Positions 210 through 533 of a stretch of DNA of 31,397 nucleotides are shown here, piece by piece (within the stretch, counting starts at the first letter, position 1; every line of letters begins with the position of its first letter). The notes beneath the pieces are model-generated. The model did no database searches and was not told the DNA's origin. It worked only from the letters and a program-made list of their open reading frames with translations. This DNA comes from a virus. The stretch spans positions 1 to 31,397 of the IMG/VR virus record IMGVR_UViG_3300031974_001216. One strand, written 5' to 3'. The translations under genes and the position numbers were made by a program.

Positions 210-443
210 ATGTCCAAACGCGAAGCACTCTTTACCGCCATGCGCGGTCGCATTTTCAAAGCCACTTTCACCAAGGCTGACGGATCGATCCGTCAGGCAT
301 GGGGCCAGTTGATCGAGGATGACCGGCTGGTCGACCATCCCAACACGGTCACTTTCATCGATTTTGGTCTCGGCAAGCCACGTCGCGCCAAGCTCGATCT
401 GCCCCACGAATTCCGGTCAGGCAAGACCGTTCACAAAGGTTAG
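210..443 (+). CDS. Small DUF2693-like phage protein
   Basis: This encodes a 77-residue basic protein. The centre (FKATFTKADGSIR, then a short strand ending in FIDFG) resembles the small SH3-like DUF2693 phage family, whose role is unknown; the assignment is from pattern memory only. I chose the ATG at 210 over the one at 192 because ACACGGAGGT lies 5 bases upstream of it. The same extended ribosome binding site precedes the genes at 534, 1546 and 3440. It is the first gene after promoter P1, and a UUCG hairpin and a hammerhead ribozyme follow its stop codon directly. Confidence 0.7.
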   Translation: MSKREALFTAMRGRIFKATFTKADGSIRQAWGQLIEDDRLVDHPNTVTFIDFGLGKPRRAKLDLPHEFRSGKTVHKG

Positions 444-456
444 GGCTTCGGCCCTA
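441..456 (+). other. UUCG tetraloop hairpin before the ribozyme
   Basis: TAGGGC (441-446) and GCCCTA (451-456) form a 6-bp stem around TTCG, a very stable RNA tetraloop. No T-run follows, so it is not a normal terminator. Its last two bases are also the outer bases of stem III of the hammerhead, so the two structures compete at that edge or stack on each other. It could protect the 3' end left on the upstream mRNA after ribozyme cleavage. Confidence 0.7.
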
Positions 457-507
457 CCGTCCGACAGTGTGCACTGTCGCTGATGAGGCCAAAAGGCCGA
501 AACGGTA
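455..507 (+). ncRNA. Type III hammerhead self-cleaving ribozyme
   Basis: All conserved parts are present in order. Stem III is UACCGU (455-460) with ACGGUA (502-507), open at the ends, which makes it type III. C461 is the cleavage-site base, so the cut is expected between 461 and 462. Stem I is CGACAGUG (462-469) with CACUGUCG (472-479). The core CUGAUGA is 480-486. Stem II is GGCC (487-490), loop AAAA, GGCC (495-498). GAAA is 499-502, with A502 pairing U460. Every stem is perfectly paired and no core base deviates. It lies between two early genes, so it should split their shared transcript 73 bases before the second start codon. Loops I and II are very short, so tertiary contacts that speed cleavage may be weak. 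Confidence 0.93.
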
Positions 508-533
508 AACCAGACATGACCACGGAGGTTGAT

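Follow-up and report, generated by a model that had tools for sequence, protein, structure and literature searches.

The locus raises two linked questions: what would a self-cleaving RNA do between two phage genes, and does the stable hairpin directly in front of it belong to the same element? The window (the whole stretch analyzed, 31,397 bases of a viral record from IMG/VR) carries replication genes on its plus strand (a SNF2-type helicase and a family A DNA polymerase). Near its start lie gene 1 (positions 210 to 443, +; 77 amino acids) and gene 2 (534 to 971, +; 145 amino acids), and the gap of 90 bases between them holds the cassette described below, all on the plus strand. Gene 1 had been called DUF2693-like in a first-pass annotation; it has relatives in IMG/VR and matches the Pfam family PF10902 WYL_2 (27.6 bits, E = 3.5e-6), which we take to be the former DUF2693. 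Upstream of gene 2, an RBS-like GGAGG stretch at approximately 520 to 530 (+) is conserved among relatives. Between the two genes, neither a consensus scan nor hairpin folding revealed a terminator. Because a scan near gene 1 found no sigma-70-type promoter, we infer cotranscription of genes 1 and 2 from their order. The label "early" given to this transcript in the first-pass annotation comes from gene content only (replication genes on the same strand). Directly 3' of gene 2, a hairpin (GGGCCAGC-UUGC-GCUGGCCC, then GGUUUUU; 991 to 1017, +) folds at -18.4 kcal/mol and is likely an intrinsic terminator; the consensus terminator scanner did not list this hairpin and U-tract. The mRNA of gene 2 would thereby run from the ribozyme cut to a terminator. 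Elsewhere in the window, a reading frame at 1546 to 2133 matches GP88 (PF17338, E = 5.5e-20), and positions 1 to 25 are low-complexity sequence (an A run, then a C run), probably a contig-end artifact.

Positions 455 to 507 (+) form a complete type III hammerhead. In stem III, UACCGU (455 to 460) pairs with ACGGUA (502 to 507); this stem is open and stems I and II are closed by loops, which is the three-helix arrangement that type III requires. The core consists of CUGAUGA (480 to 486), GAAA (499 to 502), the A502-U460 pair (A15.1-U16.1), and C461 at the cleavage position (C17, or H17), so that direct reading of the window finds every invariant hammerhead position satisfied. Stem-loop I (462 to 479, +; -8.1 kcal/mol) pairs 462 to 468 with 473 to 479 around a GUGC loop or, alternatively, has six pairs and the loop UGUGCA (468 to 473), the latter being the form conserved among relatives. 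Stem-loop II (GGCC-AAAA-GGCC, 487 to 498, +) pairs 487 to 490 with 495 to 498 around AAAA and is backed by the Rfam match, pair counts, and loop comparison. The hammerhead is intergenic and in sense orientation (gene 1 ends at 443). The predicted cut, 3' of C461 and before 462 as originally proposed, leaves 72 nucleotides (nt) of leader ahead of the gene 2 start codon (ATG, 534), which agrees with the "73 bases" stated previously.

The Rfam model for type III hammerheads, RF00008, matched positions 454 to 508 (+) over its full length (model positions 1 to 54 of 54) at 43.7 bits, with an E value of 1.1e-8 in the local stretch and 1.5e-6 across the whole window and 4,227 Rfam families. This was the only Rfam match with an E value of ≤3 in the window, which thus holds one hammerhead only. 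The search proposed in the first-pass annotation therefore found the ribozyme, below the gathering score: a default Rfam scan returned nothing, as 43.7 bits falls under the 48.5 bits required, a figure that is an annotation threshold and not a biological feature. In nearest-neighbor folding, stem III lost out to an extended stem I. This counts against the reading we favor, although the method leaves out tertiary contacts, of which hammerheads make use.

To place the element among its relatives, IMG/VR was searched with the proteins of both flanking genes, and the RNA was not used in the search. A scan of the relatives' loci found the same hairpin and hammerhead ahead of the downstream gene. 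Compensatory changes occurred in stem I (CGACAG/CUGUCG to CGGCAG/CUGCCG and UGGCAG/CUGCCA), where they affected all six counted pairs, in stem II (GGCC/GGCC to GACC/GGUC), and in the hairpin (UAGGGC/GCCCUA to UAGGCGC/GCGCCUA). MAFFT misregistered hairpin arms of unequal length, so hairpin pairs were counted by script from the loop outward. In an alignment of 20 sequences (the relatives plus pattern hits), 96.6% of stem cells paired and 9 of 16 pairs changed on both sides; none of 500 shuffles reached either value, and all slid versions were exceeded as well. This alignment showed no variation in the core or in the four inner pairs of stem III, in both cases partly because the collection pattern demands the core and fixes these pairs. 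Loss of the core in related phages had been named beforehand as an outcome that would speak against the ribozyme; in this comparison, core and stems were kept. The first-pass annotation had also left the cleavage speed open on account of short loops, a concern that loop recurrence softens: unrelated phages share loop I (UGUGYR/UGAGUG, as in UGUGUG/UGAGUG) and loop II (mostly AAAA), as would be expected of loops in tertiary contact. In six loci (L005, L009, L027, L071, L078, and L084), the hammerhead is a variant in which an additional U follows CUGAUGA ahead of stem II (CUGAUGAUGGCUGUUAGGCCGAAA) and stem I is bulged. Some of these are in the same gene context; L005 scores 32.6 bits, and the loop contact or the rate may be altered in the variant.

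How typical is the low score? We searched 42 phage records whole, all picked for holding a pattern match, so that the 35 records matching RF00008 (E ≤ 0.001) are not a measure of prevalence. Most of their hammerheads scored roughly 30 to 47 bits, and 3 of the 42 records exceeded 48.5 bits. Standard annotation misses phage hammerheads because most score under this threshold, and default Rfam settings thus overlook most hammerheads of the window's type. The same counts bear on whether the window holds a chance or decayed hammerhead-like sequence that is inactive. Its score under the gathering threshold would fit such a sequence; low scores, however, are general among phage sequences (3 of the 35 matching records pass), the core is intact, all stems covary, and diverged relatives conserve the hammerhead. 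Judged by sequence comparison, a chance origin is excluded, since relatives keep the core and the stems covary beyond shuffles, and inactivity through chance or decay is very improbable.

The matching records held up to four hammerheads each, and multiple copies within one record were all on one strand. Several hammerheads per record recall retrozymes, in which paired hammerheads give rise to circular RNAs or to a mobile element, and the window copy could then be a solitary relic. We give this reading hardly any weight: the window has one hammerhead, a single copy is conserved before one gene, and circular or spliced products were not detected for phage hammerheads (PMC3088659). The retrozyme or circular-RNA reading was rejected for the window on its single copy.

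We then considered the hairpin. UAGGGC-UUCG-GCCCUA (441 to 456, +) folds at about -9.2 kcal/mol, contains the stop codon of gene 1 (TAG, 441 to 443), and stops 5 nt short of the predicted cut. Bases 455 and 456 also form the two outermost pairs of stem III, so that two base pairs can go to either the hairpin or stem III but not to both. We scanned IMG/VR viral contigs with exact hammerhead core patterns and three stem III sequences, leaving the upstream sequence unconstrained. In nonredundant sets for which stems I and II were required, we then counted hairpins that had 6 or more pairs and ended no more than 12 nt from stem III. In the CCGTC set, 69 of 85 hammerheads had such a hairpin (shuffles, mean of 5.7 and maximum of 10), compared with 4 to 12 of about 80 at other positions in the same loci. 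The separate GCGTC/GGGTC set gave 25 of 50 (shuffles, mean of 3.3 and maximum of 6), and pattern matches unable to form the ribozyme showed no enrichment (6 of 106; shuffles, 10.1). These shuffles preserve base composition only and not dinucleotides. In bacterial genomes, just 10 of the scan's matches formed both stem I and stem II. The hairpin is not obligatory, as roughly one in five hammerheads of the first viral set and one in two of the second had none with 6 or more pairs.

Among guard hairpins, as we call them, the paired bases vary widely, and the distance from hairpin end to cut is nearly fixed (median, 6 nt; 5 to 7 nt in 72 of 94). The median energy of the set is -13.75 kcal/mol, and the window hairpin is weaker. 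We rejected the hairpin as an intrinsic terminator for want of a U-tract: in the window it is followed by CCGUC, and a U-tract followed 1 of 94 hairpins in the set. In 17 of 72 cases, the upstream gene runs into the hairpin with its stop codon, as gene 1 does in the window. In six loci (L181, L095, L185, L200, L205, and L208), this stop codon appears to sit in the hairpin loop itself, e.g., in GUAA tetraloops, which packs stop, hairpin, and cut tightly together. The first-pass annotation placed the hammerhead directly after a UUCG hairpin. The adjacency stands, and the hairpin is part of the element, a recurring partner of phage hammerheads and not a mere neighbor.

The hairpin could act as a folding insulator that folds first and protects the ribozyme from mispairing with coding RNA upstream, the cutting still being done by the hammerhead. 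It abuts the ribozyme on the side transcribed first, and extra-stable tetraloops are in use (UUCG in 21 of 90), as an insulator would suggest. In partition function calculations, however, the probability of stem III was better with native than with shuffled upstream sequence in only 65 of 135 cases (Wilcoxon P = 0.11, not significant), a weak test given that equilibrium folding ignores cotranscriptional order and tertiary contacts. The native context of the window even lowers the stem III probability (0.02 versus 0.18), and the first set has no matching enrichment of hairpins on the 3' side (12 of 85, versus 69 of 85 on the 5' side). We therefore regard insulation as an unlikely explanation of the hairpin.

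Our preferred reading, to which we assign a probability of roughly 0.6, is that the stable hairpin and the type III hammerhead together make up a self-cleaving intercistronic processing cassette that yields a 3' end guarded by the hairpin and a leader with a 5'-OH. The polymerase would transcribe gene 1, the cassette, and gene 2 as one RNA, and the hammerhead would fold on the nascent transcript and cut after C461. At its 3' end, the upstream mRNA would then carry its stop codon, the UUCG hairpin, and a tail of five bases that terminates in a 2',3'-cyclic phosphate, an arrangement that should withstand 3'-to-5' exonucleases. The downstream mRNA would begin with a 5'-OH on C462 at stem-loop I and continue through the leader, GGAGG, and the winged-helix gene to the terminator near 1017. 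The two mRNAs would be separate and could differ in stability without a host nuclease. Protection of the upstream end by the hairpin is argued by analogy: E. coli RNase II reportedly stalls 5 to 7 nt before a duplex (PMC3293843), which is the tail length that the window cut would leave. Also in E. coli, the upstream one of two genes gained expression from a stem-loop placed next to the RNase E cut that separates them (PMC10667835). In that reporter study, the protection given by a stem-loop of -25.4 exceeded that given by a weaker one of -9.3; the window hairpin lies near the latter, which counts against the preferred reading.

The first-pass annotation also described gene 2 as winged-helix-like, and structure prediction bears this out. 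Its AlphaFold model has a pLDDT of about 90 at residues 71 to 130 and of 82 to 84 elsewhere, with three helices (residues 78 to 89, 97 to 103, and 110 to 122) and a two-stranded wing (127 to 131 and 139 to 143). The C-terminal half is thus modeled as a confident winged helix, and VIA-align superimposes it on that of PafBC (7p5x) with a Z score of 9.7 (70 aligned residues; root mean square deviation of 2.2). The nearest structural matches are the WYL-type activators PafBC and DriD. With a WYL_2 protein encoded by gene 1, the two products could be parts of one regulator; against this idea, gene 1 is not conserved beside gene 2.

The cassette was said to separate two particular genes, which is true of one side only. 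A gene 2 family profile, seeded partly from hammerhead-bearing loci, found a hammerhead upstream of the gene 2 homolog in 19 of 19 viral loci, several of them near-identical and hence not 19 independent events. Identity within the family drops to about 28% across these loci, and the genes upstream of the cassette are of at least three unrelated kinds. The cassette is linked to the downstream winged-helix gene, and the upstream gene is exchangeable. Given this tie, protection of the upstream message would make a strange sole purpose for the cassette. The cassette might instead mainly serve the winged-helix gene, with the cut dropping the 5' triphosphate and upstream context, the 5'-OH and stem-loop end altering the stability or translation of gene 2 mRNA, and the hairpin being secondary. 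Hammerheads of several genomes likewise have ardA just downstream (PMC3088659). Such a role, which leaves the near-fixed hairpin distance 5' of the cut unexplained, is a real possibility that we place somewhat short of an even chance; it is compatible with the processing cassette.

Across viral hammerheads, an upstream stop codon lay within 60 nt in 68% of cases, versus 25% at random positions in the same loci. An ATG-led frame started within 70 nt downstream in 93%, versus 63% at random positions, a weak control since ATG-led frames are common; in the strand test of flanking frames, open frames on the opposite strand are likewise common in GC-rich DNA. Among 50,697 cultured-phage records, neither a DNA search with the first 2.2 kb nor tblastn with both flanking proteins gave a match. 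The nearest cultured DNA polymerases (48 to 53% identity; 023Pt_psg01, DSL-LC04, HTVC023P, and HTVC027P) point to phages of the Pelagibacter type and others from aquatic habitats; 023Pt_psg01 and HTVC023P, the two checked, had no RF00008 match. A BLAST search of cultured phages with the cassette returned short or chance matches, except for Rhizobium phages. RHEph01 and vB_RleA_TRX32-1 (Autographiviridae) have weak, unannotated type II/III hammerhead candidates between small genes (L342, 658 to 715, 2078 to 2148, and 2544 to 2605; L343, 1767 to 1838), and in RHEph01 a predicted minus-strand gene, gp002 (469 to 714), overlaps one of them. RF00008 does not recognize the hammerhead of PaP3, an active variant (PMC3088659).

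Taken alone, the ribozyme is an ordinary hammerhead of type III. Message splitting as an idea goes back to 2011, when phage and prophage hammerheads were proposed to cut polycistronic RNA and cleavage was demonstrated in vitro and in E. coli (PMC3088659). The window hammerhead, which the first-pass annotation had offered as a useful addition, accordingly belongs to an established kind. In its main text, that paper mentions neither a hairpin at the cut site nor a fixed downstream winged-helix gene. Searches of the open-access literature turned up no mention of the cut-site hairpin. The composite of hairpin and hammerhead appears to be new, and specialists may have seen it. What hammerheads do in bacteria and phages is listed as an open question in a 2017 review (PMC6155905); the near-fixed distance from hairpin to cut and the lack of a U-tract provide a concrete hypothesis for phages. 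That phages carry a widespread composite of this kind as a nuclease-independent maker of mRNA ends seems to us an even bet. If true, one RNA would set both a protected upstream 3' end and a structured downstream 5'-OH end, and this would explain why so many phages keep hammerheads.

In T7-type early transcripts, RNase III sites split polycistronic RNA into mRNAs with structured 3' ends. In the cassette, a ribozyme would replace the host RNase III, and there is no long duplex. The window element shares with the RF00008 hammerheads the core, the three-stem architecture, the open stem III, and an NUH cleavage triplet (GUC); it differs in its short stem II (4 pairs) with a tetraloop, in its subthreshold score, and in the recurring hairpin that precedes it, which the Rfam model does not include. 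Like the clustered hammerheads of Perreault et al. (PMC3088659), it is intergenic and co-oriented with the genes, and those hammerheads were likewise proposed to cut RNA into operon- or gene-length mRNAs, whereas the window holds a single copy. A further parallel lies in the selective RNA processing and stabilization elements, in which a stem-loop lies just 5' of an intercistronic endonucleolytic cut (PMC10667835); unlike these, the RNA described here would cut itself, leaving a 2',3'-cyclic phosphate and a 5'-OH, and would be phage encoded and independent of the host RNase E.
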